Part shown: positions 11,604 through 34,053 of the stretch, in pieces
Layout of the letters: every line of letters starts with the position of its first letter
Numbering within the stretch: position 1 is the first letter of the stretch
DNA from: Actinomycetota bacterium
Lineage (GTDB): Bacteria; Actinomycetota; Coriobacteriia; Anaerosomatales; JAUXNU01
NCBI GenBank assembly: GCA_030682655.1
Contig: JAUXNU010000123.1
Coordinates: 1-34,053 of the forward strand
DNA length: 34,053 nt
Reading direction: 5' to 3'
Notes under the pieces: model-generated
The model's database searches: none
Seen by the model: only the letters and a program-made list of their open reading frames with translations
What the model was told of the DNA's origin: nothing
Made by a program: the position numbers and the translations under genes

Positions 11604-11644
11604 AGCCCCGGCGCCCTGTGTCACTTGGCGCAGGGGCGTGGGCT
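11604..11644. terminator. Imperfect hairpin between convergent genes
   Basis: Arms at 11604-11618 and 11631-11644 (AGCCC...CGCCCTG with CAGGGGCG...GGGCT) form a GC-rich imperfect stem of about 12 pairs with a 12-base loop. It ends two bases past the gmd stop and 11 bases past the CPBP-like stop. There is no T tract on either strand, so efficiency is doubtful. Confidence 0.35.
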
Positions 11645-11645
11645 T

Positions 11646-14107
<2,462 letters not shown>

Positions 14108-14309
14108 GTGCTGCTCCTTCGGGGTGTTCGAATGCCCGCACATTGTCGCATATCTGTCGCGCCACGGCCGCCGCGAGCTGGCGTCGCGTGCGCCCTACGC
14201 CTGAGCAACGCCACCGCGTCTGCGGTTCCACCCCGCCAAGGGATGCGGCACAATGAACGGGATGCCCCGCGTCCGTGGCGCGCCACCTCTTGAAGGAGTG
14301 ATCCAGCGC

Positions 14310-15710: not shown

Positions 15711-15714
15711 TCGC

Positions 15715-16851
15715 GTGCGTGTGACGATGGTCAACAAGTACTACCATCCGCACATCGGCGGCATCGAGAACCACATGCGTGCGCTGGCGGGCGGTCTGCA
15801 CGACCGCGGAATCGATGTCCGCGTGCTCGTCGCCAACGAAGGCCGGATGGGCCGGGTCGACACCGTCGACGGCATTGCGGTCACGCGCCTGCCAAGGAGA
15901 TTCGCGTACGCTTCCACCCCGGTCGCGCCGGGCATGACCCACGCGATCGCGTCCCTCGCGTCGGGCGACGACGCGTCCGATATCGTGCACCTTCACGCGC
16001 CGTATCCGTGGGGCGAGTGGTCGTGGCTCAGAGCCCGCCCGGACATCCCGACAGTGCTCTCGTACCACAGCGACATCGTGCGCCAGCGTTTCCTTGGCGC
16101 TGCATACCGGCCGGTCCTCGAGCGTATCCTCGACCGGGCGGACCTCATCGTCGCCGGCTCGCCGAACATGGTCGAGCACAGCGCGCTGCTCGCTCCGCGT
16201 GCCGACAAGTGCCGCGTGGTGACCTACGGCATCGACACCGACCGTTTCGCGGATCGACCCTCGGTGCTCGATCGTGCCGCAGAACTCCGCTCCATCCACG
16301 AGCGGCCGATCGTGCTCTTCGTAGGACGCCTTGTGTACTACAAGGGCGCCGACATCCTCGTGCGCGCGATGGAGTCTGTCGACGCCGACCTCGTCGTGCT
16401 CGGTACCGGCCCGCTGGAGGCCGAGCTGCGCGAGCGAGCGGTCGCGACCGGCACCATCGACCGGATCTCCTTTCTGCCACCGCAGGACGACGACGAGCTC
16501 GCAGCCTGGTATCACGCCGCGGACGCCCTCTGCCTGCCGAGCGTCGAGCGCAGCGAGGCCTTCGGACTTGTTCAGATCGAGGCACACGCGGCGGGCACGC
16601 CGGTCGTCTCGACCGATCTGCCCACGGGCGTTCCTTTCGCGAACAAGGACGGCGTGACGGGGCTCACCGTGCCTGTCGGGGAGGTCGCGGCTCTCGCCGA
16701 AGCGCTCTGCAAGCTCCTCGGCGACGATGAGCTACGCGCGCGCTTTGGCGAGCAGGCACGAGATCGGGCGAGGGCGGAGTTCACGATCCCGCGCATGGCC
16801 GAGGAGATGGAAGCCGTGTACGCCGAGGCGATCGCAAGGAGAGCGTCGTGA
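15715..16851 (+). CDS. GT4 family glycosyltransferase
   Basis: A 378-residue GT-B protein. GTG 15715 gives the canonical start VRVTMVNKYYHPHIGGIE; GTG 15703, which would overlap the mutase stop, is the alternative. HPHIGGIENHMRALA is the N-terminal GG loop of family 4 transferases. The C-terminal domain has LFVGRLVYYKGADILVRAM, LGTGPLEAELRERA, and SEAFGLVQIEAHAAGTPVV with the EX7E pair. It ends at the GTGA overlap with the sugar-phosphate transferase gene, so it likely adds the second or a later sugar onto the lipid-linked primer made by that enzyme. Many relatives with this layout are mannosyl- or glucosyltransferases; that is inference. Confidence 0.88.
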   Translation: MRVTMVNKYYHPHIGGIENHMRALAGGLHDRGIDVRVLVANEGRMGRVDTVDGIAVTRLPRRFAYASTPVAPGMTHAIASLASGDDASDIVHLHAPYPWGEWSWLRARPDIPTVLSYHSDIVRQRFLGAAYRPVLERILDRADLIVAGSPNMVEHSALLAPRADKCRVVTYGIDTDRFADRPSVLDRAAELRSIHERPIVLFVGRLVYYKGADILVRAMESVDADLVVLGTGPLEAELRERAVATGTIDRISFLPPQDDDELAAWYHAADALCLPSVERSEAFGLVQIEAHAAGTPVVSTDLPTGVPFANKDGVTGLTVPVGEVAALAEALCKLLGDDELRARFGEQARDRARAEFTIPRMAEEMEAVYAEAIARRAS

Positions 16852-18224
16852 GGCGCGGCCGCTTCATAGCTCTCTCGGTCTTGCTGGATGCGGTGTTCAT
16901 CAACGCCGGCCTCGTGCTCGCGTTCTTCGTGCGATTCGGTGGGCAACTTCCGGCATTCAACTTCAACGCCTATCTCTCGACCGCACCGCTGATCACCGTG
17001 ATCTACCTGGTCGGCGGCTACATCTACGGCGTGTACGAGCCCGAGCGCACCGAGAACCCATGGGCGGTCGTTCGCGCCGTGCTCTCCGCCGTCACGCTCG
17101 GCGCGGCCTTGACTGCGGCCGTACTGTTCTTCGGCGGCCTGCGTTTCGCTTCGTTCTCGCGTCTCGCGATCGTCATCAGCTGGTTCATCCACATCGGTCT
17201 TCTCGTTGGGTGGAGACTCAGCTTCTTGCGCATCTCGGCTGTGACCTGGCCGGAGCAGCACGTGCTCCTTGTGGGCACGGGGCCGCTTGCTCGCGAGCTT
17301 GCGGGCGAGCTCCGTGCGCGAGGCAGGTGGGGCTACCGCGTGGTCGGCTTCCTGTCGGACACGGAGGTCGAACCCGGCGCTCCGCCTGCCGGGTCCATCG
17401 ACGGCCTTCCGGTCTTCGGCGGCCCGCACGAAGCGTCTCGCATCGTCTCCGAGCAGCGCGTCGACAGGGTCATCATCGTGTCGCCGATCGCGCTTCGCGA
17501 GCTGATCGAGTCCCTCGTCATCGCCGAGGAGGCATCGGTTCGCGTCGATGTCGTGCCCGAGCTTTACGAGGTCTTCATCGGAACCGTTGACAGTATGGTC
17601 GCCGACATCCCGCTCATGGAAATCACCCGCCAGACGGTGCCGCCGTGGTTCGCAGCGGCCAAGCGGCTGCTCGACCTGTCCTTCGCGCTGCTCCTGCTCG
17701 TCGTCCTCAGTCCGGTCGTGCTCGTCGCCGGGTTCGTCGTGCTCATGACCATGGGGAGGCCGGTGTTCTTCGTCCAGGAGCGTGTGGGCAAGGACATGAG
17801 GCCTTTCAAGATCATCAAGTTTCGCACGATGGTTCGCGATGCCGAGCGCGAGACGGGCCCGGTGCTCGCGGCCGATTCCGATGCGCGCATCACGCCCCTT
17901 GGTGGCTTGCTACGCCGATACCGCATCGACGAGCTCCCACAGCTGCTGAACATCGTTCGCGGCGAAATGAGTTTCGTCGGCCCGCGTCCCGAGCGTGGAT
18001 ATTTCGTGGAACAATTCGCAGCGGTAATCCCCGGCTATCGCGAGCGGTTTAAGGTGAAGCCTGGTGTGACAGGACTCGCGCAGGTCAGTGGCGGGTACGC
18101 AACGACTCCCGAACGCAAACTGAAGTACGACCTCATCTACATGTATCATCAGAACCTGCCAATGGACGCGCAGATCGTGATTGAGACACTCAGGGTCGTT
18201 CTCACCGGGCGCGGAGCGAGATAG
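16848..18224 (+). CDS. Polyprenyl-phosphate sugar-1-phosphate transferase (repeat-unit initiating enzyme)
   Basis: A 458-residue membrane enzyme that transfers a sugar-1-phosphate from a nucleotide sugar to undecaprenyl phosphate, starting polysaccharide repeat synthesis. GTG 16848 follows AAGGAGAG closely and overlaps the previous stop. Four hydrophobic segments lie in residues 7-125. A Rossmann-like segment follows (HVLLVGTGPLARELAGELRA and RVDRVIIVSP, about 140-235). The catalytic part starts with AAAKRLLDLSFALLLLVVLS (269-288), a membrane-inserted helix, then the bacterial sugar transferase motifs IIKFRTM (322-328), DELPQLLNIVRGEMSFVGPR and KPGVTGLAQVSG. This is the full-length polyisoprenyl-phosphate hexose-1-phosphate transferase layout (WbaP/CpsE type). 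The sugar is unknown; galactose or glucose are common. Confidence 0.93.
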   Translation: MRRGRFIALSVLLDAVFINAGLVLAFFVRFGGQLPAFNFNAYLSTAPLITVIYLVGGYIYGVYEPERTENPWAVVRAVLSAVTLGAALTAAVLFFGGLRFASFSRLAIVISWFIHIGLLVGWRLSFLRISAVTWPEQHVLLVGTGPLARELAGELRARGRWGYRVVGFLSDTEVEPGAPPAGSIDGLPVFGGPHEASRIVSEQRVDRVIIVSPIALRELIESLVIAEEASVRVDVVPELYEVFIGTVDSMVADIPLMEITRQTVPPWFAAAKRLLDLSFALLLLVVLSPVVLVAGFVVLMTMGRPVFFVQERVGKDMRPFKIIKFRTMVRDAERETGPVLAADSDARITPLGGLLRRYRIDELPQLLNIVRGEMSFVGPRPERGYFVEQFAAVIPGYRERFKVKPGVTGLAQVSGGYATTPERKLKYDLIYMYHQNLPMDAQIVIETLRVVLTGRGAR

Positions 18225-18232
18225 GAGCAAGA

Positions 18233-20374
18233 GTGGCCAAGAAGCGAGCGGCAGGCCCTGCGGCGAAGACTGCGGCGCCTACCCCCGCACCGCGCCAGCA
18301 GATGACGGCCACAGAACGCATCGCCTGGTACTGTCTGCATGCGATGCTCTTCGCAGTCCCGCTCGGCATGAGCAACTGGACCTGGCTCGGGTTCCAGCTC
18401 CCGTTCACGTTCGACCAGTTCGACATAATCAAAGTCGCCCTACTGCGCGGGTTCACGATCATCGCCCTGGCGGCATGGATTTGGCATATCGCCGTCGAAG
18501 GGGGACGACTCCGCCGCACCAAAGTCGACTACCTCATCCTTGCGCTGCTTGCGTGGATCGTGCTCACTACCTTCACCTCCATCCATCCGCCGACGGCCTT
18601 CTTCGGGAAGTACCGGCGCTTCGAAGGGCTCGTGTCCTTCGTCAACTACGCCGCGATCTTCTGGCTCACCACGCAATTCACCGACCGTGCGTCCCGCATC
18701 AAGTCCCTCGCGCGGACGTTCTTCTTCTCGGGTTCCATCGTGAGTCTCTACGGCATCATGCAGTACGTTGGGCTCGACCCGATCAGGTGGGGCTCGCTGC
18801 CTTTCGAACCGAACCGCGCGTTCTCCACCTACGGCAACCCCGACCTTCTTGGCGGGTTCCTCGTGTTCTCGCTCGTGATCAGCTTCGCTCTCGCTATGGC
18901 CGAGGAGGACTCGACATGGCGTGCGGTGTTTTGGGTCGGAACGATCATCAATTCGATCGCCTGGATCGTCGCGTTCACGCGGGGTGCCTGGATCGGAGGC
19001 GCAGTCGGCCTCGCGATCGTCGTGTTCGCGATGGTTCGTCAGAAGAGCAAGCTGACAACGGTCGATAGTTGGTTCGTGGCAGCGATGGCGGTGCTCAGCT
19101 CCATCATCACGGTGCGAAGCTTGACCGCGGCCTCCGAAGTCATGAACGTCTGGAAGCGCTTCTCGTCGATCCTGAACGTGAGAGATCAGAGCGCCGTGAC
19201 CCGCTTCCAGATCTGGCAGGCGGCCATTGACGCCATCAAGGAACGTCCGATCCTCGGCTACGGCGCCGATACCTTCCGACTCGTCTTCCCGCGCTTCAAG
19301 CCAGAAGGCTATGTCGAGAAGGCCGGCTACCTGTCCGTGGCCGACAACGTGCACAACTACCCGCTGCAGACTATGTCCGCCCTCGGTATCCCGGGCTTCC
19401 TCCTCCTGTACGGCGTCTTCGCAGTCGTTCTGTGGCTTTCCGCCCCTATCGTGTTCGCCAAGGAGAACAGCCGGGACCGTCTTCTCATGGTGGGATTCTG
19501 GGCAGCGGCCGTGGGATACCTGGTGCAGCTGTTCTTCGGCATCGCGGTAACGGGATCGGGCTTCCTGCTGTGGGTGTCGATGGCGATCGTGCTATCTCCG
19601 CTCGCCAAGACGATCCAGGTCAAGGCGCCTTCCTGGGGGATCGCTGCCGCCGCTACCACCGTTGTTCTCGCGTGTGCGCTGCTGGTGGGCAACGTTGTCT
19701 ATGTCGTCGCCGACAACCACTACCTCCAGGCGAGGGTCTTCGCGCAGGAGGCGAGTCGCGTTGCGGAGGTTCGTGCGGCGATTGCGCTCAACCCGTACAA
19801 CGACCAGTACCGTGCCGAGCTTGGCGTGGCGTACGCGGATCTCGCTGTCGCGTACCTGGGCCAGGTCGACACCTTGTCGGAACCGGGGCAGGACCCGAAG
19901 GCCTTGGAGTCGGCCAGGAACACAGCCGAGATCTACCTGAAGGAAGCGGAAGCCGCCTTCAACGACGTCATTGAGTTTGTCCCGTCCGAGTACGACAACT
20001 ACGTCTTTCTCTCCAATCTCTACAACATGGCCGGTGACTACTTCGGCGAGGACTACTACGCCAAGGCTGTGGAAGTAGCCAAGCGCGGCACCGAGGTCGA
20101 ACCCTACGGGCCGGCGGTGCGCCTGCAACTTGCGCGCGGGCTGGTTGGAACAGGAGACTTGGCCGGCGCGCAGAAAGAACTGGAGTACGCAGTCGGTCTC
20201 GATTCGCGCTATGTGGAGGGATGGTCACTCCTTGGCCAGGTTCGGTTGACGCTGGGAGACACCGCCGGAGCCAAGGAGGCCTTCGGGCAGGTTTCCCGGC
20301 TCAGGCCGGAGGACACGAGGGTCAGCGATTTCCTGCAGCAGCTCGATTCGAGCCAGACGACCACTCCCGAGTAG
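18233..20374 (+). CDS. O-antigen ligase/polymerase-family membrane protein with C-terminal TPRs
   Basis: A 713-residue protein starting at GTG 18233 with AGGAG overlapping the previous stop codon. After a basic Ala/Pro-rich cytoplasmic leader, about ten to twelve membrane segments span residues 35-500. The central external loop contains VTRFQIWQAAIDAIKERPIL then GYGADTFRLVFPRFKPEGY, the hallmark of Wzy_C/WaaL-like ligases and polymerases. From about residue 510 the chain is helical with TPR pairs (PYNDQYRAELGVAYADLAVAY; PYGPAVRLQLARGLVGTGDL; GWSLLGQVRLTLGDTAGAKE). In a monoderm-type cell it would polymerise or ligate a surface polysaccharide or glycosylate proteins rather than act on LPS. It is 28 bases before rex. 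Confidence 0.85.
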   Translation: MAKKRAAGPAAKTAAPTPAPRQQMTATERIAWYCLHAMLFAVPLGMSNWTWLGFQLPFTFDQFDIIKVALLRGFTIIALAAWIWHIAVEGGRLRRTKVDYLILALLAWIVLTTFTSIHPPTAFFGKYRRFEGLVSFVNYAAIFWLTTQFTDRASRIKSLARTFFFSGSIVSLYGIMQYVGLDPIRWGSLPFEPNRAFSTYGNPDLLGGFLVFSLVISFALAMAEEDSTWRAVFWVGTIINSIAWIVAFTRGAWIGGAVGLAIVVFAMVRQKSKLTTVDSWFVAAMAVLSSIITVRSLTAASEVMNVWKRFSSILNVRDQSAVTRFQIWQAAIDAIKERPILGYGADTFRLVFPRFKPEGYVEKAGYLSVADNVHNYPLQTMSALGIPGFLLLYGVFAVVLWLSAPIVFAKENSRDRLLMVGFWAAAVGYLVQLFFGIAVTGSGFLLWVSMAIVLSPLAKTIQVKAPSWGIAAAATTVVLACALLVGNVVYVVADNHYLQARVFAQEASRVAEVRAAIALNPYNDQYRAELGVAYADLAVAYLGQVDTLSEPGQDPKALESARNTAEIYLKEAEAAFNDVIEFVPSEYDNYVFLSNLYNMAGDYFGEDYYAKAVEVAKRGTEVEPYGPAVRLQLARGLVGTGDLAGAQKELEYAVGLDSRYVEGWSLLGQVRLTLGDTAGAKEAFGQVSRLRPEDTRVSDFLQQLDSSQTTTPE

Positions 20375-20402: not shown

Positions 20403-21047
20403 ATGAGTCAACTACCGGTACCACCTACTACTGTCGCGAGACTGCCCCTGTATCTGCGTTGCATGCTGCAGGCACAGAGCCAGCGTGTTGCTGTGATCAA
20501 CTCCGTGGGCATCGCAGAGATGGCCGGCACGAATGCCGCACAGGTGCGCAAGGACCTGTCATACCTGGGTGAATACGGGACTCGCGGAATCGGCTACGAC
20601 GTCGAGGAGCTGGCGGCGCACCTCATGCGCTGGCTTGGCATCACAGAGCATCGTCGTGCGGCGATCGTGGGATTCGGCCGGCTGGGCAGCGCACTGCAGA
20701 GCTACGGTGGATTCGGGGAACGCGGCTTCAAGTTCGTGGCGGTCCTCGACACCGACCCGGAGAAGATCGGTGTCGAAGCAGGTGAGCTCACGGTCGAGGC
20801 GCTCGACGACATCGACGCCGTGTTCGAAAGGGAGGGCGTCGAGGTCGTCATCATGACGGTGCCCGCGAGTTCGGCGCAGGTCGTGGCCGATGCGGTCGTT
20901 CGTGCGGGCGTGAAGGCGATCTTGAACTTCGCACCGGTTCGCCTGGAAGTGCCCGAGGACGTTATCGTGCGGCAGGCTGATGTAGCTGCCGAACTGCAGA
21001 TACTCTCCTTCCACCTCAACACGTCGAGACTCGGAGCAGCTGACTAG
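20403..21047 (+). CDS. rex: Redox-sensing transcriptional repressor Rex
   Basis: A 214-residue cytoplasmic repressor that binds DNA when NADH/NAD+ is low and leaves it when NADH rises. ATG 20403 has AAGGA seven bases upstream. The N-terminal winged helix includes LPLYLRCMLQ (14-23), INSVGIAEMAGTNAAQVRKD (32-51) with the recognition helix, and LSYLGEYGTRGIGYDV (52-67), the highly conserved Rex wing. The Rossmann motif GFGRLG is at 90-95, followed by VLDTDPEKIG (114-123). NFAPVRLEVPEDV and the C-terminal helix complete the normal length. It sits between a glycan ligase and genes for surface electron transfer, and two TGTGA-N6-TCACA palindromes downstream (24220-24235, 30486-30501) match the outer bases of actinobacterial Rex operators. 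Confidence 0.95.
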   Translation: MSQLPVPPTTVARLPLYLRCMLQAQSQRVAVINSVGIAEMAGTNAAQVRKDLSYLGEYGTRGIGYDVEELAAHLMRWLGITEHRRAAIVGFGRLGSALQSYGGFGERGFKFVAVLDTDPEKIGVEAGELTVEALDDIDAVFEREGVEVVIMTVPASSAQVVADAVVRAGVKAILNFAPVRLEVPEDVIVRQADVAAELQILSFHLNTSRLGAAD

Positions 21048-21761
21048 ATGAACTCGCAAGACGACTCGCAGCTCGATCCAGACGCTCCGGATGGCGATAT
21101 CGCCGCAGACTCGCAGGCGGCAAGCCAGTACGATGATCGCCAACTCGTTCCAGGATGGCTGGCGGTTCTTGTCGTGGTCCTGCTCCTTGCTGTCATGGGT
21201 GTCGGCGGGTATCTCGTTCGTGGTCTCGTCACCACACCTCGCTACGAGACTCCCGAGGAGGCGGAGATCTCCAAGTGGCAGGAGGCGGTTGACGAAGACC
21301 CATCAGACGATGGCGCGCGACTCTCCCTCGGCTTCGCGTACCAGCAGGCCGAGCGCTACGACGACGCGATCGCGGAATACGATCGCGTGCTGTCCTCGGA
21401 GCCGTCGGACACCGCCGCGCTGTACAACAAGGGAATGTCGCTCTTCGTGCTGGGACGCGACGAGGATGCCGAGGAAGTGCTTTGGAAGGTCATGGAGGTG
21501 GACGATACTCATGTGCTCGCCGCCAAAGCGCTTGGCGAGTACTACGCGGAGCGGGGGCAGTATCGCTCTCTCGTCAGGGCGGTTCGACCTGCGGTTCAGA
21601 TGACCGAGTCGGCCGCGGATCTCCAGTACCTCATGGGGCTAGCGTACGAGAAGCTCGGCCGCGCTGACTGGTCCGAGGCGCGCTACCGCCTCGCCTTGCG
21701 CTACTATCCCGACATGCCCGAGGCCAAGGAAGGTCTCGCTCGCCTTGGAGTGAAACCGTGA
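21048..21761 (+). CDS. Membrane-anchored TPR protein
   Basis: A 237-residue protein whose ATG directly follows the rex stop; GGAG lies 11 bases upstream. Residues 1-35 are acidic and polar, then LAVLVVVLLLAVMGVGGYLV (38-57) is a single membrane helix, and the rest is outside or inside as a TPR domain: ARLSLGFAYQQAERYDDAIA, ALYNKGMSLFVLGRDEDAEE and LQYLMGLAYEKLGRADWSEA. The layout resembles the TPR halves of cytochrome c maturation proteins (CcmH/NrfG-like), which bind apocytochromes. With multiheme cytochromes nearby, a chaperone or assembly scaffold role is plausible but unproven. It overlaps the NHL gene by GTGA. Confidence 0.8.
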   Translation: MNSQDDSQLDPDAPDGDIAADSQAASQYDDRQLVPGWLAVLVVVLLLAVMGVGGYLVRGLVTTPRYETPEEAEISKWQEAVDEDPSDDGARLSLGFAYQQAERYDDAIAEYDRVLSSEPSDTAALYNKGMSLFVLGRDEDAEEVLWKVMEVDDTHVLAAKALGEYYAERGQYRSLVRAVRPAVQMTESAADLQYLMGLAYEKLGRADWSEARYRLALRYYPDMPEAKEGLARLGVKP

Positions 21762-22852
21762 CGGACAATCTGATTCCCCCGCAGAAGCCGCGCGGCTTTC
21801 ACCTGACCCCGCGCCAGTCGTTCTTGCTCCTAGCCGGCGTGTTGGCCACCATGCTCGTTGGCCTCATCGTCTACCTGCTCATGTTCCTGTCGCCCGCGGG
21901 TTTCACCCGGTCCGGCGGTGACGTGAAGAACGGCATCAAGCCATTGCTCACCATCAACGGCCCTGGCCGAGGAGAGAAGCCCGACTTCGACCGGCCGCTT
22001 GGGGTCGCGTTCGGTTCCGGTGGCCGCATCTATGTGGTCGACACCGGCAACAACCGCGTCTGCGTGTTCTCCAAGGGGGGCCGATTCCTCTTCGAGTTCG
22101 GCGGTTTCGGCGTCGCCAAGCCCCTACCGGGGGCCAAGGAGACCTGGACCGAGGGCTCGATGAACTTCCCGATAGGAATCGACGTCGATTCCGACGGCGA
22201 CGTCTACGTTGCCAACTTCCGAAACGACCAGATCGACGTGTACGACGAGGATGGGAAATGGCTCAGGCGCTTCCCTGATCCCAAGCTTTCCGTTGGCAGG
22301 GGCGCGTCCGGGCAGGACGGTCTCGGGGTCGCGTGCACAGATGTCGCCGTCCGCGGCGATGAGGTGTACGTGACAGACACGTATCAGGTCATCGTGTTCA
22401 AGCGCGACGGAACGTTCCTCCGCCAGTTCGGCATGCCGGGTTCCGGTCCGACCGGGCTCGATCACCCCAACGGTATCGACGTGGGGTCGGACGGGACTGT
22501 CTATGTCTCGGACTCGAATCACAACCGGGTCATGGCGTTCGAGAAGAACGGCAAACCCATGTGGCAGCTCGGCGAGCAGGTCAGCGACACCACGACCGAG
22601 ACCACGGACTATGATTTTGGGCTCCCACGAGGACTCACCGTGCTCGACAGCGGGGCGATTGTAGTCGTCGATGCGTTCGAGTTCGCCCTGGCCACCGTGA
22701 GCAGTGAGGGGAAGCTCCTCGGCAGGTACGGGACCAGGGGCGTTGAGCCAGGCCAGTTCAACTTCCCGAACGGTATCGATGACCTTGGGAAGAGGCTCGC
22801 TGTTGCCGACAAAGAGAACAACCGCGTGGCAATCCTTGAGATTCGCGACTAG
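21758..22852 (+). CDS. Membrane-anchored NHL-repeat six-bladed beta-propeller protein
   Basis: A 364-residue protein starting at the GTG that overlaps the TPR gene stop. One signal-anchor helix is at about 22-44 (SFLLLAGVLATMLVGLIVYL), so the propeller is probably extracytoplasmic. Six NHL-type blades can be counted from about residue 78 to 362, with words such as RPLGVAFGSGGRIYVVDTGN, FPIGIDVDSDGDVYVANFRN, HPNGIDVGSDGTVYVSDSNH and FPNGIDDLGKRLAVADKENN. There are no heme motifs. NHL propellers occur often next to multiheme cytochrome genes, where they are thought to be scaffolds or partners. It probably belongs to one transcript from the ligase through rex and the TPR gene. Confidence 0.88.
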   Translation: MTDNLIPPQKPRGFHLTPRQSFLLLAGVLATMLVGLIVYLLMFLSPAGFTRSGGDVKNGIKPLLTINGPGRGEKPDFDRPLGVAFGSGGRIYVVDTGNNRVCVFSKGGRFLFEFGGFGVAKPLPGAKETWTEGSMNFPIGIDVDSDGDVYVANFRNDQIDVYDEDGKWLRRFPDPKLSVGRGASGQDGLGVACTDVAVRGDEVYVTDTYQVIVFKRDGTFLRQFGMPGSGPTGLDHPNGIDVGSDGTVYVSDSNHNRVMAFEKNGKPMWQLGEQVSDTTTETTDYDFGLPRGLTVLDSGAIVVVDAFEFALATVSSEGKLLGRYGTRGVEPGQFNFPNGIDDLGKRLAVADKENNRVAILEIRD

Positions 22853-24324: not shown

Positions 24325-27300
24325 GTGAAGCGGAAGACATGGTGGAGGATCGCAGCGGTTGCGGTCCTGGTCTCCGTCACATGTGTGGCGGTGGCAGCGG
24401 CAGGGATTGCGGGTGCTGGAAGTGCTCCGGTCACGATCGACACGCGCAAACCGACTGCTCCCGCGATAGCCGGTGACCGCGTTGTATGGTCGGACTATGT
24501 CGACGATTCCTACGAGATCTTCCTCTACGATGGTGCAAGTGGTGTCACGAGCAGGCTGACCTCCACCCCCGAGAACGAGGTCCAACCCGCGACTGACGGC
24601 AAGACCGTCGTATGGGCGCAATACGGCGCCAAGGACGCGGACATCATCGCCTACGACATCGCCTCCCGGTCGTATGTGACGGTGACCAACGCCTCCGGCA
24701 ACCAGCTCAACCCCGACGTGAACGGCGGCTTCGTGGTGTGGGAGGAGCGCGGTCGCTCCTATGTGCCACAGGTCTATGCCCGCAGTCTCAGTGGCGGCGA
24801 TCCGTTCAAGATCGACGGCCTGTCGCAATCGGCTGCCCGTCGCCCCCGCATGGGTGGCGACTGGGTCGTCTACGAGTACCTCCCGATGAACCTGAGCGAC
24901 GACGGCGACATTCGGGCGTACAACTTCGTGACGAAGGCGATCACGACGATCGCCAACACCGACGCGCAGGAAATTCTGCCTGTCACCGACGGCCGCTACG
25001 TCATCTGGGCCGATGGCTCCGGCGCAGACCGCGACATCCAGGGCTACGACTTGCTGGCGGGATCCGCATTCCCGGTCCGCGTGCAAGCGGGCAACCAGAC
25101 GTACCCGGTCATCGACGGTGGAGTCGCCTACTGGGTTCACAACCAGCCTGGCAAGCGCCTGCACCTCGACGGCTACGACATCGCGGGCGCTCAGGCGTTC
25201 GCGTTCAACGATGCCGGCTCTTCTGACGTCAACGCTGTCAGTGCGCGTGGCGGCGGTATCGCATGGCTGGAGCCTCGCGCAGACGGGCAGTGGCGCCTCC
25301 GGGCGATCCTTGGCCCGACGGCCGGTGCAACGTCCTCGCTGGCTTCGCTACTGCCGGTTTCGCCGGCGTGGCTGCCCTTCCGTCTGGCCCAGCTGTCAAC
25401 GGCCGGAGATACGACCGCCCCCGCGATCGTGTCCACGTCAGTCAAACCGGGTGCGACCAATGTCGATGCAAACACGGATGTGACGGTGTACTTCTCGGAG
25501 GCGCTCGACGCCTCGACCGTCGACGCCGAATCGATGCAGCTCGTCGCAGCTTCCATGGGCGAGCCCGTCGACGCTGCGGTGCGATACTCGGCTCGCGCGA
25601 AGGCCGTCACCGTCTCACCCGACGAGCCTCTCGCCGAGGACTCGTACACCCTGTCCGTGGCCGCCGGGGTCTCTGACCGGGTCGGCAACGCCATCGGCAC
25701 GCCGCTCGCAGTCTCCTTCGCAACGGACAGCATCATGGCGGACACTCTGGCGCCGACCAAGCCCGGCAACCCGACGGCACGCGTGTCCGGTCTCACCCAG
25801 GTCGCGCTGACCTGGACGGCATCTGTCGACGATGTCGGCGTGACCGGATACGACATCTACCGGGACACCGTGTCGTTCATCACAATCGGCTCCCGCACGC
25901 CGATCGCAAGCGTTGGTGCGGGCGCGACCTCCGCGCTCGTCAACATCGACAGCACAGTGCCGAGCGAGCGCACCAAGAAGTACACCCTGTACTACGTCAT
26001 CGTGGCCAAGGACGCCGCAGGCAACACCGCGTTGTCCGGCAACGCCGTGCCCGACCCGCATGGGACGACCGCGATCGGCACGAACACGTGTCTCGGTTGC
26101 CACTCTGTTCACGGCGGTGGGAGTCGTCCGTCGAGCTGGGGTGCCCTTGGTGCCAAGGGTGCCGAGGCGTGCTACCTGTGTCACGGCAACACCGCGGCGG
26201 CCACTGCGTTCGGCTATGGGTCGAGCCTCAACACGCAGGCGCGGTTCTTCGACTACGTGGCGAGCCCGCTTCCCAGCGGGGGCACCCGTCACCGGAACAC
26301 CTACATGGCGGTTACGTCGGGAAACCAGAACTCGTGCGACATGTGTCACACGTCGCATCGCAAGCCGTACGACACCGATTCCACGAAGGGCTACACCCGG
26401 ATGGTGCGCTACTGGGACACCGGTTCGGGTGGGCGCTTCCTGTACTACCGCAGCGACGGCAACGTCGTGGATGTGAACGGCGTCGTTGTGCAAGCAGGGC
26501 TCGGCAAGGAATACTGCGCGTCGTGCCACGGCGCAAGCCTCGAGCGCATCGAGAACATCGACGTCGGCGGCCCGGGCGCATGGGCGAGCAGCTCCGGTGA
26601 CCATCTGACCGGTTTCGACGCGGGAGCCCACGGTTCGGCGACTGTGAGGTGGGACCCGGCTCGACCGACTGCAGACGGCCCCAAGATCTCGTGCGAAGCG
26701 TGCCACAACAAGCATGCGTCGCCCATTGGCGGCCTCGTGGACTACCGGGTCTCCAACACGCAGACATCTGAGTACGAGCAGTCGGGCGTGTGCTTCGCGT
26801 GCCATGTCGACAATTACGTTGCCGAGCAGGAGAGCGGCATGAGCGTGAGCACGAACGCCTTCTCTGCATGGAACGGCCGCAACGTGCGGACCGAGTTCGC
26901 TCGCGTTTCCAGTCACCCCTACTCCGCCCAGACGGGCTCGCTCACATGCTACAATTGCCACAACACGCACATGGTCCAGAAGGGCACCGCCGGGGCGGCA
27001 TGGCAGACGAGCCGGGTAAGCAACCCGGCCAACACAAAGCAAAACTACTCTGGGACTGGATTCGCAAGCTTCTGTCTGGCGTGCCACAAGCAGTCGAGCG
27101 GGACCGTGCTGTCTGCGGTTACTAACTCCTCGACTACGCTGGTGCCATACAGGGTCGTTCTCCGGGACATGGGTGCGTACTCGTTCTTCCCCGGCTGGAA
27201 CAAGACCACGACCAGCGTCGACTGGGCTGGCTCGCGTCATGCGGCAGTCGGTGCCGTGCCCGGTTGCGAGACGTGTCATGATCCGCATGGGTCGAACTTC

Positions 27301-28416
27301 CCGCGTCTTACCGCACTCACGCAGGGCGCCAACGTCCGCGCGAACACGAACGCCGCGGTCTCGAAGGAACAGAACCTCTGTTCGAGCTCGGACGGTTGCC
27401 ACAGCAGTACCGCGGCTGGCAGCAAGAACACAGGCACTGCGTTTGCCCAGACCTACAAGCATCCGATCGCCACCGACGACGTCCACACCGACCTCGAAGA
27501 CCAGTCGAACTTCGGTTCGGAGAAGCGGCACTCCGAGTGCGTGGACTGTCACGACCCGCACGCCGCGCGCGCCGGGATCCACACCGCCGGCAGCGCGACG
27601 GCGGGCGGCGCCGTTCGCGGGTCTTTCGGCGTGAAGCCGAGCTGGAGCGGCGAGTGGACGGTCGCCACCGGCTACACCATTGTTCGCAACACGGGGCAGG
27701 CGACCGATTACGAGGCATATCTTTGCTTCAAGTGTCACTCGAGCTACTCCGGCCAGCCGTACAGCGTCACGAGTAACGGGCGCACGTACACCTCGACCGA
27801 CGTCGCCCTCGAGTTCAACGAGAACAACGAGTCCGGCCACAACGTCATCGGCAAGTCGACCGACGGCAGCTCCATCTGGCCAAAGACGAGCGGCGTCGGC
27901 GCGGCGGACAACCGCACGTGGTCGTTGCCGACGACAGCGAACTGGCTCAAGACCGGGTGGACCCCGACATCGAAGGTCACCTGCTCTGACTGCCACACGT
28001 GGGGCGGGACGGGCGCGGCCGGTCCGCACGGTTCGAGCGTGAAGTACATGCTCGACTCGGGATTCCCGACCGACTGCGAGACCGCGTACCTGGACATGAG
28101 TCAAGCCAGTCGAGACGCCCTCATCTGCTCCAAGTGCCACAACAGCAACTACCGCGGCATGAACAACGTGCATGCGCGCGGTGACCACGCCGGGGTGGTC
28201 GACGCGCGCTGCATCGGCTGCCACGTCAAGATCCCGCACGGGTGGAAGCGTCCAAGACTCCTCGGATACCGGAGCGATCCCGAGCCCTACCGGGCGCTGT
28301 ATCTGACCGGTATCACCGACAAGAACTACACGGCAACTGGCTGGAACAAGAGCGACTGCGGGCAGAGCGGGTGCGGCGGGCACAGCGCGAACCCGGCGGG
28401 CACCAGGTGGCCGTAG
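24325..28416 (+). CDS. Giant multidomain multiheme cytochrome (beta-propeller, Ig-like, FN3, 14 hemes)
   Basis: A 1363-residue exported cytochrome. GTG 24325 follows GGGGAGG with a nine-base gap and starts a clear signal sequence (MKRKTWWRIAAVAVLVSVTC). Residues about 36-340 are TolB-like propeller repeats (DRVVWSDYVDDSYEIFLYDG; GKTVVWAQYGAKDADIIAYD). Residues 365-468 form an Ig-like Big_5 domain (TTAPAIVSTSVKPGATNVDA). Residues 477-575 are a fibronectin type III domain (LAPTKPGNPTARVSGLTQVA). From Cys589 to Cys1296 there are 14 CXXCH motifs, many followed by H or PH (CHSVHG, CHTSH, CHDPHG), plus one CX5CH at Cys1019. A CGQSGCGGH near the end lacks the CH. It is probably a surface electron conduit with adhesive domains. 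A terminator follows. Confidence 0.92.
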   Translation: MKRKTWWRIAAVAVLVSVTCVAVAAAGIAGAGSAPVTIDTRKPTAPAIAGDRVVWSDYVDDSYEIFLYDGASGVTSRLTSTPENEVQPATDGKTVVWAQYGAKDADIIAYDIASRSYVTVTNASGNQLNPDVNGGFVVWEERGRSYVPQVYARSLSGGDPFKIDGLSQSAARRPRMGGDWVVYEYLPMNLSDDGDIRAYNFVTKAITTIANTDAQEILPVTDGRYVIWADGSGADRDIQGYDLLAGSAFPVRVQAGNQTYPVIDGGVAYWVHNQPGKRLHLDGYDIAGAQAFAFNDAGSSDVNAVSARGGGIAWLEPRADGQWRLRAILGPTAGATSSLASLLPVSPAWLPFRLAQLSTAGDTTAPAIVSTSVKPGATNVDANTDVTVYFSEALDASTVDAESMQLVAASMGEPVDAAVRYSARAKAVTVSPDEPLAEDSYTLSVAAGVSDRVGNAIGTPLAVSFATDSIMADTLAPTKPGNPTARVSGLTQVALTWTASVDDVGVTGYDIYRDTVSFITIGSRTPIASVGAGATSALVNIDSTVPSERTKKYTLYYVIVAKDAAGNTALSGNAVPDPHGTTAIGTNTCLGCHSVHGGGSRPSSWGALGAKGAEACYLCHGNTAAATAFGYGSSLNTQARFFDYVASPLPSGGTRHRNTYMAVTSGNQNSCDMCHTSHRKPYDTDSTKGYTRMVRYWDTGSGGRFLYYRSDGNVVDVNGVVVQAGLGKEYCASCHGASLERIENIDVGGPGAWASSSGDHLTGFDAGAHGSATVRWDPARPTADGPKISCEACHNKHASPIGGLVDYRVSNTQTSEYEQSGVCFACHVDNYVAEQESGMSVSTNAFSAWNGRNVRTEFARVSSHPYSAQTGSLTCYNCHNTHMVQKGTAGAAWQTSRVSNPANTKQNYSGTGFASFCLACHKQSSGTVLSAVTNSSTTLVPYRVVLRDMGAYSFFPGWNKTTTSVDWAGSRHAAVGAVPGCETCHDPHGSNFPRLTALTQGANVRANTNAAVSKEQNLCSSSDGCHSSTAAGSKNTGTAFAQTYKHPIATDDVHTDLEDQSNFGSEKRHSECVDCHDPHAARAGIHTAGSATAGGAVRGSFGVKPSWSGEWTVATGYTIVRNTGQATDYEAYLCFKCHSSYSGQPYSVTSNGRTYTSTDVALEFNENNESGHNVIGKSTDGSSIWPKTSGVGAADNRTWSLPTTANWLKTGWTPTSKVTCSDCHTWGGTGAAGPHGSSVKYMLDSGFPTDCETAYLDMSQASRDALICSKCHNSNYRGMNNVHARGDHAGVVDARCIGCHVKIPHGWKRPRLLGYRSDPEPYRALYLTGITDKNYTATGWNKSDCGQSGCGGHSANPAGTRWP

Positions 28417-28502: not shown

Positions 28503-29027
28503 ATGACCTCGCGCCGTTGCATACTCCTTGGATTCGCGCTTGCCTCAGCGCTCGTCGTCGCGCTTGCGACCGGCTGTTCGCCCGAGACCCCTGCGACCAC
28601 CGAGAACCCGGGTCCTCCGCCTGCGGCTCCTACGGCGGAGCTCACATCACCCGAGTCCTCGGTCCGCTCCTACATCGACGCTATCGGCTACGCGTACCGC
28701 ACGGCGCGCTCCGAGGAGGCGACCCACGCGATGACCCTTTCGGAGTGGGTTCGGGTCGACTCCTACATCGAGCTCAACCGCATCGACGGGCGCGCGCTCG
28801 AGCAGACGCTGACGGCATTCACGATCCGCGCGCAGTCCCAGGAGGGCACGCAGGCCGTGCTCGCCGCCGCCGAGCAGTGGAAGTACCGCTACATCACGAT
28901 GAAGACCGGCGTGTATGACGGTCCTTGGAGCCAGGCCTCCTACGAGACCACCTACACGCTGGTCAACCAGGCACAGGGTTGGCTCGTCGACCGGGTCGAG
29001 GCGAAAGCCCTGACCTCTGTGGAGTAG
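28503..29027 (+). CDS. Lipoprotein of unknown function
   Basis: A 174-residue protein with a lipoprotein signal: basic start MTSRRC, hydrophobic core, and ALATGC with the lipidated Cys at 25. A Pro/Ala/Thr-rich linker (about 26-48) leads to a 120-residue domain containing SSVRSYIDAIGYAYRTA, WKYRYITMKTGVYDG and YETTYTLVNQAQGWLVDRVE. That last pattern looks like an NTF2-like or ARC6-IMS-like alpha/beta cone, a guess by eye. No ribosome site precedes ATG 28503. TACGAT at 28490-28495 would place the transcript start at or beside the ATG, so the mRNA may be leaderless. It is three bases from resB, so it may help cytochrome assembly on the outer face of the membrane. Confidence 0.75.
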   Translation: MTSRRCILLGFALASALVVALATGCSPETPATTENPGPPPAAPTAELTSPESSVRSYIDAIGYAYRTARSEEATHAMTLSEWVRVDSYIELNRIDGRALEQTLTAFTIRAQSQEGTQAVLAAAEQWKYRYITMKTGVYDGPWSQASYETTYTLVNQAQGWLVDRVEAKALTSVE

Positions 29028-29030
29028 CGC

Positions 29031-30464
29031 ATGGCGAGCCGCATCCGGCGATTGCTCACGTCGCGCCGCCTCGCCGTGGGGCTGCTCGCGACGATGGCCG
29101 CTTGGTCGGCGGTCGCGATGTCAGTACCGCAGGCATCCCTCGACGCGGCTGCAGCCTCGGCGTGGACGGCCTCACACCCGACACTCAGCGCCGTCGCGCG
29201 GCTGTTGGGGCTGGATAGCGCGTTCTCATCACCGCTCTTCGGTCTGGCGTTGGGAATCCTGCTCGTCAGCACGCTCACGTGCGCATGGGAGCGCACGCGA
29301 ATCTCGCTTCGCGGTTGGCGTAGCGCCGGCACACTCTCTCCTGGTGGACTGAAGCGCCTGCAGCGGAACCCCGAGCTTGTCGTCACCATAGCTCCCGGTA
29401 CCACCGTCGAGCAGGCTCTCAGCTCCGCCGAGGACGTGGCGCGCACTCTGCGCCTCAGGGTGCGCCGCGGCCCGACCCTGCTCGAAGGCTCGGCGGGCCG
29501 GGTGGGGCTCCTTGGCAGTCCGGTGTTTCACTGGTCGCTTGCGCTGCTGATCGCCGTGATCGTCGCAGGGCGGCTGACCAGGGCCGAGGGCATGGTCGGT
29601 GTGCCCGTAGGGGAGCGCGTGTTGGATGCGGCTTCGTCGTACCGCTCGCTCGACGCAGGGCCGCTCTACCCGGGGCATTCGGGGCTCGGGATCACCGTCG
29701 ACGAAGTGCAGGAGTCGTACAGCCCCGATGGGCTGAACCTCGGGGTTGCCGTCGAAGTGGCGCTGTGGGACGGAGAGCGGGAGGTTGCGCGCCAACTTGT
29801 CTACGCCAACCACCCGCTCAGGTACGGCACTCTCATGGTGCATGCGAGCGACTGGGGGCTGGCACCGTCGTTCTCTCTCGAGGACTCGCGCGGAATCGAG
29901 ACGGCGAGATCGTCCGCACTGGTCGACTTCCTGCCGGGTGACTCCGTCCGCACCGATGTGAGCGGCTTCGACATAACCGACAGTTCGGGGGAGTCGCGGT
30001 TTGGCGTCGACGTGAGCGTGCCGCTCGACGCCGAGGAGCCCTCGGTCGAGATCACGGTCACGGATCTGGTCACCTCCGATGTGCCGGGTGCGGCGACGCT
30101 GGGCGTGGGGGAGGCCTTCGAGCTGCCGGACGGCGAGAAGTTGCGGCTCGCTGCGGTGCCTCGCTACGGGCGGCTATCCGTCGCCGACGACTGGAGCGTG
30201 GTGCCGATCTACGCGTTGTTCGCGTTCGCCACGGTCGGGCTCTCCTTGGCGATTCTCACGCCGCATAGGCGGGTGCGGATTCTGGCTGTGGAGGCCGAGG
30301 GGCGGGTCTCGCTCCATGTCGTTGTGCAGCACGATCGGGGGAGCGCGGTCTTTCGCGAGGAGGCGCTTGATGCGTTCGGGAGGGTGGGTGCGAATGGGGG
30401 GCGAATCAGGCCCAGCGGCGGGGTCACCCAGTCGGATGAGCGACGAAATCAGCCGAAAGGGTGA
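29031..30464 (+). CDS. resB: ResB/CcsB-type cytochrome c biogenesis protein
   Basis: A 477-residue protein of system II cytochrome c maturation, which with ResC/CcsA carries heme across the membrane and attaches it to CXXCH. ATG 29031 follows the lipoprotein stop by three bases, with GGAG upstream. Membrane helices are at about 14-34, 67-86, 165-184 and 386-408. SPVFHWSLALLIAVIVAGRL carries the conserved His of the third helix. The large external domain between helices 3 and 4 includes YANHPLRYGTLMVHASDWGL, a ResB signature. A basic 60-residue tail follows the last helix. No resC/ccsA is in the window. Its place among multiheme genes fits the heavy demand for heme attachment. Confidence 0.88.
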   Translation: MASRIRRLLTSRRLAVGLLATMAAWSAVAMSVPQASLDAAAASAWTASHPTLSAVARLLGLDSAFSSPLFGLALGILLVSTLTCAWERTRISLRGWRSAGTLSPGGLKRLQRNPELVVTIAPGTTVEQALSSAEDVARTLRLRVRRGPTLLEGSAGRVGLLGSPVFHWSLALLIAVIVAGRLTRAEGMVGVPVGERVLDAASSYRSLDAGPLYPGHSGLGITVDEVQESYSPDGLNLGVAVEVALWDGEREVARQLVYANHPLRYGTLMVHASDWGLAPSFSLEDSRGIETARSSALVDFLPGDSVRTDVSGFDITDSSGESRFGVDVSVPLDAEEPSVEITVTDLVTSDVPGAATLGVGEAFELPDGEKLRLAAVPRYGRLSVADDWSVVPIYALFAFATVGLSLAILTPHRRVRILAVEAEGRVSLHVVVQHDRGSAVFREEALDAFGRVGANGGRIRPSGGVTQSDERRNQPKG

Positions 30465-30753: not shown

Positions 30754-33700
30754 ATGAAGAGCAGACTACTGCTGTTTGCGCTGCTTGTCGGGGTGGTAGT
30801 CGCGATTCCAGTCGCGGCATCCGCGATCCCAGTGCCGCCCTTCGAGACGAACACATCGTGTCTCGAGTGTCACGACGTGGCGGCCGGAGGTCCGGTGATA
30901 AGCACCGTGGACTTCTCGGCGGCGTCCGTGGACCTGACGAAATGCAATGCGTGCCACTGGGTTCAGAACCACTACCCGCATGGCAGCTTCGTGCAGTGCA
31001 ACTCGTGCCACTACTCGATGCCCACGCGCACGGACTTCTTCAACTCGAGCGTTTCGACACCCTACGGCTTCTTCGCGTCCGCGGTCTCCCCCTCGCTCGA
31101 CCCGGCGCTCATCCACGAGGCCCATGCGAACGGCTCGTGGCCAAAGGGCGTCACGACTCACCCGACCAAGGGCCAACCCGTGTACTGCGCGTCCTGTCAT
31201 GCCCCCGCAGCGTGCGATGCATGTCACGGCACCGTTCCACACGGAAACCACACCGCTGCGGCTCCCGGTGATCCCTACCCCGGCGTCACTCGCACCGTCG
31301 CTCGCGGTGCGACTCCGGCACAGTACTCCACGACCAACACCACGGTCAGCGAGACCAGCCGTTGCATCAACCCGTCCTGCCACGACGTGGCGGGCGTTCC
31401 TGGCGCGATCGTCCGCGCCCAGTTTGAAGAGAACAGCCCCTTGGTCACCTACGCTCCTCTTTGGGACACAGAGCTTTCCCTGTTCTACTCAGGTGGACAG
31501 CTGTTCTACACCGGCCGCGCAGGATACAAGGCGAACATCACGGTCAGCGGGCCCGGCATCGTGCGCGTGTACGGACTCCGTGACGCTTTCGGAGGACTCG
31601 CTGATGTCACCGTGGATGGCGGATCCCCGACACGTGTCGACTTCTTCAGCAACGCGACACAGTACAACGCGCTCGTGTTCCAGACCGATGATCTGTCCGT
31701 CGGCCTTCACACCATCACCATCACTGCGCTCGGACGGCGTACTCTTGGCTCGGGGGGCAACAGCGTGTACCTGGATGTGGTCCGCGTCCTGAACCTGACC
31801 GGAGCGAGCTTCAAGCCGGACTGCACCGACTGCCATGCCGACCGCAAGGTCACTCACGGCTACGATTCTGTCGACCACGTTGCAGATGTAGGCGCTTCGT
31901 CCAACCCGGGCGAGCCCGCGTGCGGCACTTGCCACGAGATGGACGTGCTCACCGAGCACGAGAGGAGCTCGTCATCCTCGGCGGGTGGGACGTGCGGTAC
32001 ATGTCATCCTGCGCCCCGGGATACCTATGGCGACTGGGATCAGTCGTGCGAGCAGGGCGGCTGTCATGCCGCCGGAAGCGCCACCGGCAAGCACGCCGAC
32101 ATGGCGAGTGACCACACTCCGCCTTCGGCGGGCGCCGTTTGCGCCGAGTGCCATGCGGGCGACCTGGGCGCCGTGCATGTTGATGCGTCCGTCACCGATG
32201 GCGCGGGCACGCGTACGACGTGCAACGTCTGCCACACTACGACCACAGTGCCGACCACCAACGACTGCACCGTCTGCCACTTCACATTCGACGGTCACTA
32301 CGACGCCGCCGTTCACACGAGCACCTGGACCCTTGCTGGCTGTGACAGCGCCGGGTGCCATCCGACCCGCGACTTGATGGACGCGCATACGGACAAGAAC
32401 GCCGCGTTCACCTGCTTCGGCTGTCACTCGAGTTCCGACCCGATCGTAGTAGCCGCCATCGACGACGGCGACACCGCGTGCGGGACGTGTCACACATCCG
32501 TCTCGCAGACGGACAGTCATCGCGCGGTGCACTGGGCGAACCCGCCGCTTGTCGGCGGTGTCACTCCCACGCCGTTCTACTCGTACTACACGGGCTCTGC
32601 GGGCACGTCTCCCACGAAGGACTGTGCGGGATGCCACGTCAGCAACCTCGTCGACGAGCACATTGGCGTCTTCGAGAACGGCCAGTGGACGCGCGTGCCG
32701 AGGACGGACTCCGCCGGCGCGGCTCTCACGTGTGCGACATGCCACGCATCCCTCGACTCAGCGACTATGACTGCGATCGCGCTCGGCCAGACCAAGTGCG
32801 ATGCGTGCCATGTCGTCCACGGACCGATCGGAAAGGTCCACAAGTCGACTTATGTCGCGAATCCCGACATAGACTGCTCCGGTTGCCACAGCGTGGACCT
32901 GACCGTGGTCCACAACGGCTACATGACGACCACGACGCCGAGCGGAAGGGTTCTGTCGGGGTGCGAGCTCTGCCACGCATACACCGAAGGCGATCTCGGC
33001 CAGCGGGTCCAGGATGCCATCGCGGTCACGAACGACACGAAGTGCGATGCGTGTCACCTGGCCTACCACGAGGGCTCCACCTCTCATGGGGCATCGGCTC
33101 CCGAGAGTGTCGATGACTGCGGCACGTGCCACGGAACCGTCGAGGCCGGCGTGCTCGATGTCGTTTCAATCCATGCTGGCGTCACTTCTCCCGGGCCGTG
33201 CAAGGTCTGTCACAACAACCCGACGCGCGTGGTCGATCTGACGACCAAGAGCGCTGAGTGCGCCTCGTGTCATGCGACGGTTGGGACCGACTACCACCGC
33301 AACATGGACGTCCATGTCTCGCCGGACGCGGCGCTCTGCAGCGGTCAGTGTCACCACCGAAACCCAGACGTTACCGTTGTCCATACTGCGGGGTGTACGA
33401 CCTGTCACACCACCGTGAACACCGAGGGCATCACCACGGCCTGCACGAACTGTCACTTGGTCCAAGGCGAGGACTATCACGAGAATATCGACGCCGCCCA
33501 TACCACGAGCGACGCGCCGAGCACGGACTGCATACGGTGCCACGGAGACACGCCTGACGTTCGCAAGATCCACACGACGTTGCAGTGTGCGACATGCCAC
33601 AACAGCCTGTGTGTGGATTGTCACACGGTTCATTCCCCCGCGCCGGGCAGTGCGCTCCTGAAAGTCATGGCGTGCTCCACGTGCCACGCCGTCTCCGGGA

Positions 33701-34053
33701 CCGAGTACCACCGCACCATGAACGACAAGCACACCTTCGGCGCCATGGACCCGGGCTGCGTGAGCGCCGGCTGTCATGCCGCCAACACGCTGCCGGAGGC
33801 TCATGCGCCATATCTCGACCGCTACCCGCAGTACACCGACACGTGCGCGCTTTGCCACCTGAACACGGGCGACACGCGCGTCGCCAACGGCTACCCGCCG
33901 ATCGACTGGGCTACGGCGAGCGCGGACTGCTCGACGTGCCACACGGTCCACGGCGACATCACGACGATCCACACCGCTCCGGCAAGCCAGGAGTGCGTCG
34001 ACTGCCACGAGACGGCCGACGTCCGCACCATCCACGGCGCGACCCAGGCCGCC
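30754..34053 (+). CDS. Giant multiheme c-type cytochrome with embedded CBM-like domain (runs off window)
   Basis: The frame stays open for 1100 codons to the window end. ATG 30754 has GGGGAG seven bases upstream; GTG 30751 is an adjacent alternative. The signal peptide is MKSRLLLFALLVGVVVAIPV, cut near ASA-IPV. Hemes begin at Cys36 with five CXXCH and one CX4CH (Cys204). Residues about 225-349 have no heme and look like a carbohydrate-binding beta-sandwich (GPGIVRVYGLRDAFGGLADV; LSVGLHTITITALGRRTL). The remainder is dense heme sequence. In total 31 CXXCH, four CX4CH (Cys204, 432, 530, 1002) and one CX3CH (Cys862) are visible, with many extra histidines for axial ligation. It is probably extracellular and carries electrons over long distance. 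The C-terminus and any anchor lie outside the window. Confidence 0.92.
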   Translation, partial: MKSRLLLFALLVGVVVAIPVAASAIPVPPFETNTSCLECHDVAAGGPVISTVDFSAASVDLTKCNACHWVQNHYPHGSFVQCNSCHYSMPTRTDFFNSSVSTPYGFFASAVSPSLDPALIHEAHANGSWPKGVTTHPTKGQPVYCASCHAPAACDACHGTVPHGNHTAAAPGDPYPGVTRTVARGATPAQYSTTNTTVSETSRCINPSCHDVAGVPGAIVRAQFEENSPLVTYAPLWDTELSLFYSGGQLFYTGRAGYKANITVSGPGIVRVYGLRDAFGGLADVTVDGGSPTRVDFFSNATQYNALVFQTDDLSVGLHTITITALGRRTLGSGGNSVYLDVVRVLNLTGASFKPDCTDCHADRKVTHGYDSVDHVADVGASSNPGEPACGTCHEMDVLTEHERSSSSSAGGTCGTCHPAPRDTYGDWDQSCEQGGCHAAGSATGKHADMASDHTPPSAGAVCAECHAGDLGAVHVDASVTDGAGTRTTCNVCHTTTTVPTTNDCTVCHFTFDGHYDAAVHTSTWTLAGCDSAGCHPTRDLMDAHTDKNAAFTCFGCHSSSDPIVVAAIDDGDTACGTCHTSVSQTDSHRAVHWANPPLVGGVTPTPFYSYYTGSAGTSPTKDCAGCHVSNLVDEHIGVFENGQWTRVPRTDSAGAALTCATCHASLDSATMTAIALGQTKCDACHVVHGPIGKVHKSTYVANPDIDCSGCHSVDLTVVHNGYMTTTTPSGRVLSGCELCHAYTEGDLGQRVQDAIAVTNDTKCDACHLAYHEGSTSHGASAPESVDDCGTCHGTVEAGVLDVVSIHAGVTSPGPCKVCHNNPTRVVDLTTKSAECASCHATVGTDYHRNMDVHVSPDAALCSGQCHHRNPDVTVVHTAGCTTCHTTVNTEGITTACTNCHLVQGEDYHENIDAAHTTSDAPSTDCIRCHGDTPDVRKIHTTLQCATCHNSLCVDCHTVHSPAPGSALLKVMACSTCHAVSGTEYHRTMNDKHTFGAMDPGCVSAGCHAANTLPEAHAPYLDRYPQYTDTCALCHLNTGDTRVANGYPPIDWATASADCSTCHTVHGDITTIHTAPASQECVDCHETADVRTIHGATQAA

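Follow-up and report, generated by a model that had tools for sequence, protein, structure and literature searches.

A giant secreted multiheme cytochrome with which an uncultured actinobacterium probably passes respiratory electrons through its wall

It has been reported that giant multiheme cytochromes carry up to 86 heme sites in ANME (PMC9012536) and 30-53 in bacteria, and that one Coriobacteriales genome found in an anode biofilm encodes 37 multiheme cytochromes (PMC7399161). How electrons pass through a Gram-positive wall, which is 20-80 nm thick (PMC7911101), is an open question, and the model put forward for Thermincola requires small cytochromes to be stacked. Here we describe a conserved giant cytochrome family from the actinobacterial order Anaerosomatales (Coriobacteriia) that has enough hemes per chain, a probable wall anchor and evidence of heme-module gain, and that makes this question testable in cultured Anaerosoma and Parvivirga. 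In the literature we found no description of this family, its CBM32-type tail or its expansion hot spot; giant cytochromes are a known class, and this build, probably wall-anchored, is unusual within it.

The window, that is, the whole stretch of 34,053 nucleotides that was analyzed, is one entire contig (C123) of a genome of 2.94 Mb. The gene of interest runs off its 3' end and continues in a second contig (C137):

30754..34053, plus strand: giant multiheme cytochrome gene, residues 1-1100 of 1750 (supported by its heme motifs, a unique overlap of 97 bases and a frame that stays open across the joint)
30754..30825, plus strand: signal peptide MKSRLLLFALLVGVVVAIPVAASA, cleavage site judged by eye
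L003:98-2050 (contig C137): 3' remainder of the gene, ending at a stop

From the ATG at 30754, the 1100 codons up to the window end encode 31 CXXCH, four CX4CH (residues 204, 432, 530 and 1002) and one CX3CH (residue 862), exactly the numbers that the original prediction had counted by eye; in 2000 composition shuffles of the same 1100 residues, CXXCH averaged 0.30 and never exceeded 3, and CX4CH averaged 0.33. The prediction had also left the frame open at the edge and named a frameshift or stop just beyond it as grounds for doubt. The first is true of the window, and the second, which we looked for in C137, is ruled out: the final 97 bases of C123 are bases 1-97 of C137 and occur nowhere else in the genome, and the frame crosses the joint without a stop and stays open for 650 further codons, terminating at C137:2050. 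Orthologues are colinear through the position of the joint. On single contigs in L034, L035 and L036, ResB and a small lipoprotein lie upstream of the orthologue, and 14-CXXCH and NapC-like genes lie downstream; this is the gene order across C123 and C137, so the join is supported by synteny, and an assembly artefact is ruled out because these contigs span the joint. By overlap and synteny, the join is sound.

The joined protein has 1750 amino acids and 50 heme sites (43 CXXCH, six CX4CH and one CX3CH). Residues 1-1500 contain 100 cysteines, every one of them within the 50 motifs, leaving no orphan cysteine, together with 57 histidines outside the motifs. Beyond the signal peptide there is no other hydrophobic or transmembrane stretch. 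With C-X2-4-C-H motifs far above chance, a signal for export and conservation in orthologues, the protein is by its sequence a secreted giant multiheme c-type cytochrome, and the very high heme density in a secreted protein that had been predicted was right. The adjoining ResB gene and the absence of orphan cysteines are indirect signs that the 50 predicted sites may carry covalently attached heme.

CX4CH is a known heme spacing in class III cytochromes, for example cytochrome c3, and so represents no new motif. The following sites lie in the window:

31363..31383, plus strand: CX4CH site 204 (CINPSCH), spacing kept in 15 of 17 orthologues having the region
32047..32067, plus strand: CX4CH site 432 (CEQGGCH), spacing kept in 11 of 12 orthologues having the region
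32341..32361, plus strand: CX4CH site 530 (CDSAGCH), spacing kept in 17 of 17 orthologues having the region
33757-33777, plus strand: CX4CH site 1002 (CVSAGCH), spacing kept in 16 of 18 orthologues

Another of the six sites keeps its spacing in 17 of 18 orthologues, and the remaining one is CX4CH in six and CXXCH in 11. Preservation at five of six positions, in nearly all orthologues, marks these as inherited heme sites, rules out chance cysteines and histidines and corrects the label "non-canonical" that they had been given. CX4CH has been counted in other surveys as well (PMC7399161, PMC10734462); counting CXXCH alone overlooks a conserved set of hemes. Across orthologues, motif cysteines and histidines are 99% conserved and non-motif histidines 93% on average, with 85% of non-motif histidine columns conserved at 90% or more, as compared to about 30-60% for most other residue types. 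Such conservation is expected of distal heme ligands and suggests that the hemes are bis-His, probably for the most part. In the heme part, which in its core has about one heme per 25 residues, we found Pfam matches to PF14522 (84 bits), PF14537 (51 bits) and PF02085 (35 bits), and to an MtrC/MtrF domain. Cytochrome_C7 and Cytochrom_c3 matches above cut-off, with conserved candidate distal histidines, place it among c7/c3-type (class III-like) modules, the ligation itself being predicted, and the protein would be built mainly of such modules.

Of the 69 genomes examined from the order, 21 had core relatives (E ≤ 1e-30), while outside it only one genome in a phylum sample of 396 matched, weakly (3.5e-16). 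The named full-length relatives are Coriobacteriia or Actinomycetota MAGs, one of them labelled Anaerosomatales, and relatives outside Actinomycetota are 22-28% identical over heme-rich stretches only. Heme sites number 37 to 58 in those orthologues whose start is complete, and at least 60 in one that is truncated at its 5' end. The nearest solved heme relatives are 3ov0, MtrF, 6r2q, STC, NrfB and cytochrome c3, and, for the heme part, the solved structure that the family profile matches best is 3ov0 (GSU1996; E 9.7e-11). Other giant cytochromes were seen in the order: a frame at L106:3677-16591 (minus strand; G024:C40), cut at its 5' end by the contig, has at least 4305 codons, an fn3 domain and 88 sites (68 CXXCH, one CX3CH and 19 CX4CH), more than the 86 of the largest ANME cytochrome (PMC9012536); L108:1180-9990 (minus strand) has 2937 codons and 71 sites; and two adjoining genes at L107:1813-10272 and 10638-20000 (plus strand) have 53 and at least 57.

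The range of heme numbers is accompanied by a local expansion between residues 835 and 1030:

33256..33441, plus strand: first copy of the tandem module (residues 835-896), in which the second heme is CX3CH, namely CSGQCH at 33337-33354
33442..33669, plus strand: second copy of the tandem module (about residues 897-972), in which the second heme is CX2CH, namely CIRCH
33670..33849, plus strand: third copy of the tandem module (residues 973-1032), in which the second heme is CX4CH, namely CVSAGCH

The three related copies read ECASCHATVGTDYHRNMD..., ACTNCHLVQGEDYHENID... and ACSTCHAVSGTEYHRTMN..., and as their second hemes are CX3CH, CX2CH and CX4CH, respectively, motif spacing changed after duplication. 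The interval from heme 836 to heme 1031 is 67 residues, a single module, in most orthologues; it is about 204 in our protein and L034, 201 in L048, 294 in L040 and about 547 in L042 and L104. About three copies where most orthologues have one is direct evidence of tandem expansion, and heme number would change by tandem insertion of such small modules. Over the whole protein, self-BLAST found no repeats, and a heme-anchored profile comparison gave a weak triplet periodicity, whose value of 19.4 lay just above the highest of 300 permutations, 15.9, and which fits c7-like triheme units and GSU1996 as the top solved heme match. Growth by module duplication, as originally proposed, thus holds at residues 835-1030; over the whole protein, the weak triplet signal is all that was found beyond the motifs themselves, and the suggested CXXCH-CX4CH frame is not clearly repeated.

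After the hemes, Pfam identified a CarboxypepD_reg domain (residues 1535-1611) followed by an F5/8 type C domain (1625-1735). Profile (PF00754, 69 bits) and fold (Foldseek match to 4zxe, TM-score 0.91 of the target, 36% identity) agree on a CBM32/F5_F8_type_C module, closest to the chitosan-binding CBM32 modules 4zxe and 4zz5, the former from a Paenibacillus chitosanase. AlphaFold2 modelled these C-terminal domains confidently (pLDDT mostly 83-96), whereas in the heme regions both of its models, which contain no hemes, are poor (mean pLDDT 50 and 62). F5/8C matches occur in 12 of 14 family members; L036 has no C-terminal F5/8C domain. A further domain interrupts the hemes:

31384..31821, plus strand: beta-rich insert without hemes (residues 211-356), which only three of the family members compared possess

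This insert has no Pfam match, and a fold search with the low-confidence N-terminal model returned as its sole outcome a weak resemblance to CBM35/CBM6-like jelly rolls. The Pfam scan found no S-layer domain of the kind that ANME cytochromes have fused to their heme domains, and found CarboxypepD_reg and F5/8C instead. Together, these two domains probably hold the protein to glucosamine-containing wall or matrix polymers. It is the modelled fold that points to the sugar ligand, and binding of minerals, EPS or another cell would be equally possible. The cytochrome could be a contact or terminal one that attaches through its sugar domains to partner cells or to polysaccharide outside the cell, for interspecies electron transfer or for electron uptake from electrodes and minerals. 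The CBM32-like tail and the CBM35/6-like insert of three members are compatible with such a role, and partner recognition has been proposed for the pectin-lyase-like domain of giant ANME cytochromes (PMC9012536); however, a CBM32 that binds glucosamine polymers fits the cell's own wall equally, and for the source genome there is no evidence of a partner organism.

An orthologue in EMTCatB1, from an electromethanogenic biocathode, bears on the same possibility; it lies at BDLO01000001:1037919-1041878 on the minus strand and has 37 heme sites. There, the gene order is Wzy_C-like, Rex, TPR, NHL, 14-CXXCH, giant, lipoprotein, ResB and CcsA. It has been reported that a multiheme gene, 1c0363, lies within the top 10% of transcripts, that nuoC is 1c0337 and formate dehydrogenase 1c0406-0408, and that genes up in closed circuit include 1d0898 and 1c0642, neither of which is 1c0363 (PMC7943316). 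We numbered the orthologue by counting complement-strand genes from nuoC, with a check at formate dehydrogenase. The giant orthologue fell at 363-364 (364 when counted from nuoC), and the formate dehydrogenase cytochrome at 405, or at 407 when two genes missed in calling were added, which puts the error of the count at about one gene. As the only multiheme genes near that position are the giant orthologue and its 14-CXXCH neighbour, 1c0363 is probably the former; by gene counting we hold this with good confidence, the neighbour being the other candidate. Probable high transcription on a biocathode where a methanogen also lives (PMC7943316) favours the contact role, which on all the evidence we nevertheless consider unlikely. 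Elsewhere in EMTCatB1, two genes that by eye are glycosyltransferase- and methyltransferase-like (L114:2550-4285; G011:C1:1062550-1064285) have lower third-position G+C within a G+C-rich stretch.

The neighbourhood of the giant gene contains the following, in plus-strand order up to the giant gene itself:

20403..21047, plus strand: Rex-type redox-sensing repressor (Put_DNA-bind_N and CoA_binding); its start may be 20463
21048..21761, plus strand: TPR protein with an N-terminal hydrophobic segment
21758..22852, plus strand: NHL-repeat protein with an N-terminal hydrophobic segment
22908..24050, plus strand: 7-heme cytochrome
24325..28416, plus strand: secreted cytochrome of 14 hemes that also contains beta-propeller repeats and an Ig-like domain (Big_5)
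28503..29027, plus strand: small putative lipoprotein, 174 aa, a conserved neighbour with no Pfam match
29031..30464, plus strand: ResB, system II cytochrome c biogenesis, 477 aa (Pfam PF05140, 3.5e-32)

Past the giant gene, the plus strand encodes a 15-site protein anchored by a single hydrophobic segment at its N-terminus, then a 12-site NapC/NrfH-like protein, TPR and NHL proteins, a protein with six hemes and two membrane proteins with 12 hemes each. The cluster totals eight cytochromes and 128 heme sites. ResB adjoins orthologues of the giant gene in L034-L036, L043, L044, L047 and L103, and Rex adjoins cytochrome genes in the last four of these; ResB, the 15-site membrane protein, the NapC/NrfH-like protein and Rex are conserved neighbours between families of the order. 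In several genera, however, the giant gene lies by itself among ilv/leu genes and the membrane cytochromes are not there, which counts against the wall route proposed below. The 14-heme protein shares 42% identity, over about its last 190 residues, with residues 1328-1513 of the giant protein (198-residue alignment); its propeller repeats are of the Methanosarcina type, and its cytochrome end is common to the giant protein. TPR and NHL membrane-protein pairs flank the giant gene on both sides (window 21048-22852 and L003:5030-6918). At 18302-20374 of the window lies an O-antigen-ligase-like protein with Wzy_C and TPR matches in Pfam, which rule out an FtsK-like protein; it adjoins Rex in EMTCatB1, L043 and L044, and upstream of it in the window are nucleotide-sugar and glycosyltransferase-like genes.

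In the route that we propose, menaquinol would pass electrons to the NapC/NrfH-like 12-site membrane protein, which would hand them by way of the membrane-anchored 15-site protein to the giant cytochrome and from there to surface cytochromes, minerals, electrodes or partner cells; on a cathode the direction may reverse. We infer the location and partners of the giant cytochrome, as well as this route and its direction, from sequence. The 50 hemes might instead mainly store charge in the wall while an outside acceptor is lacking, as their number would allow and as has been proposed for large multiheme cytochromes (PMC7399161), but the conserved order with quinol-dehydrogenase-like and membrane multiheme proteins suggests throughput. 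Storing and carrying charge are not mutually exclusive, and storage as the main role seems to us quite unlikely.

It has been previously reported that the Fe-Fe distance between neighbouring hemes is about 0.9-1.2 nm (PMC10454114). Fifty hemes would therefore reach at most about 50 nm, which suffices for many walls and not for micrometres, and the micrometre-scale conduit of the original prediction is unsupported; none of our tests pointed to polymerization either. Micrometre conductive filaments could still arise if the protein polymerized or joined end to end like OmcS, OmcE or OmcZ. Such an arrangement would suit the very high heme density, and an OmcS homologue has been reported in an anode-biofilm Coriobacteriales genome (PMC7399161). 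The comparison with these nanowire cytochromes that had been called for gave no family-level match: OmcS and OmcZ were unmatched at E ≤ 1 in the profile search, and OmcE (7tfs), although among the weak matches, gave only a short local one (E 0.0016). A regular helical subunit is not what one would expect of a protein of 1750 amino acids whose C-terminal sugar-binding domains vary and whose length differs between orthologues (37 to at least 60 sites). Wall binding is the simpler role, and we regard filaments as very unlikely.

On balance, we favour as reasonably likely the reading in which this 50-site secreted cytochrome, probably held by its sugar-binding module, is a single-polypeptide electron conduit through the monoderm wall, by which the uncultured actinobacterium would probably pass its respiratory electrons outward. 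A more tentative proposal, which we put forward as possible and somewhat doubtful, is that one covalent wire, held by its sugar-binding modules, spans the whole wall in place of the stacked small cytochromes proposed for Thermincola, that lineages tune how far it reaches through heme modules inserted at a single hot spot (37 to at least 60 hemes), and that within duplicated modules the same site shifts among CX2CH, CX3CH and CX4CH. The gene may serve as a marker for electroactivity in subsurface actinobacteria.

Several known systems resemble this one in part. The giant ANME cytochromes (MHC types A, B and C; 20-86 sites) are likewise very large and secreted, with dozens of sites and fused non-heme domains that possibly hold them in or on the envelope; they differ in the kind of these domains (S-layer, peptidase M6-like or pectin-lyase-like) and, for types A and B, in having C-terminal transmembrane helices (PMC9012536), whereas the protein described here is bacterial, carries CarboxypepD_reg and CBM32-like domains and has no transmembrane helix, a comparison by description and not by homology. 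The cytochromes of 30-53 hemes from Geobacter, Burkholderiales and Ignavibacteria share heme number, secretion and a proposed role as wire or capacitor (PMC7399161), although the sequence families differ as far as seen, consistent with the low identity outside Actinomycetota. GSU1996 of Geobacter sulfurreducens, a c7 string, is alike in its c7-type triheme units and heme density, but has 12 hemes rather than 50 and no sugar-binding tail. Parvivirga hydrogeniphila, an obligate Fe(III) reducer of the same order, has a cluster of multiheme, biogenesis and Rex genes (MCL4079323-32; PMC9686372); that report names MtrA and OmcH homologues and a quinol-oxidizing multiheme protein and mentions neither heme numbers nor the protein described here, so the likeness is one of description, not of sequence. 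The ImdcA-PdcA-CwcA-OcwA route of Thermincola also leads in a Gram-positive cell from membrane through peptidoglycan to surface (PMC7911101); there, several proteins of 6-10 hemes are used and CwcA is proposed to stack 4-16 copies, whereas here one chain would carry hemes for about 50 nm.
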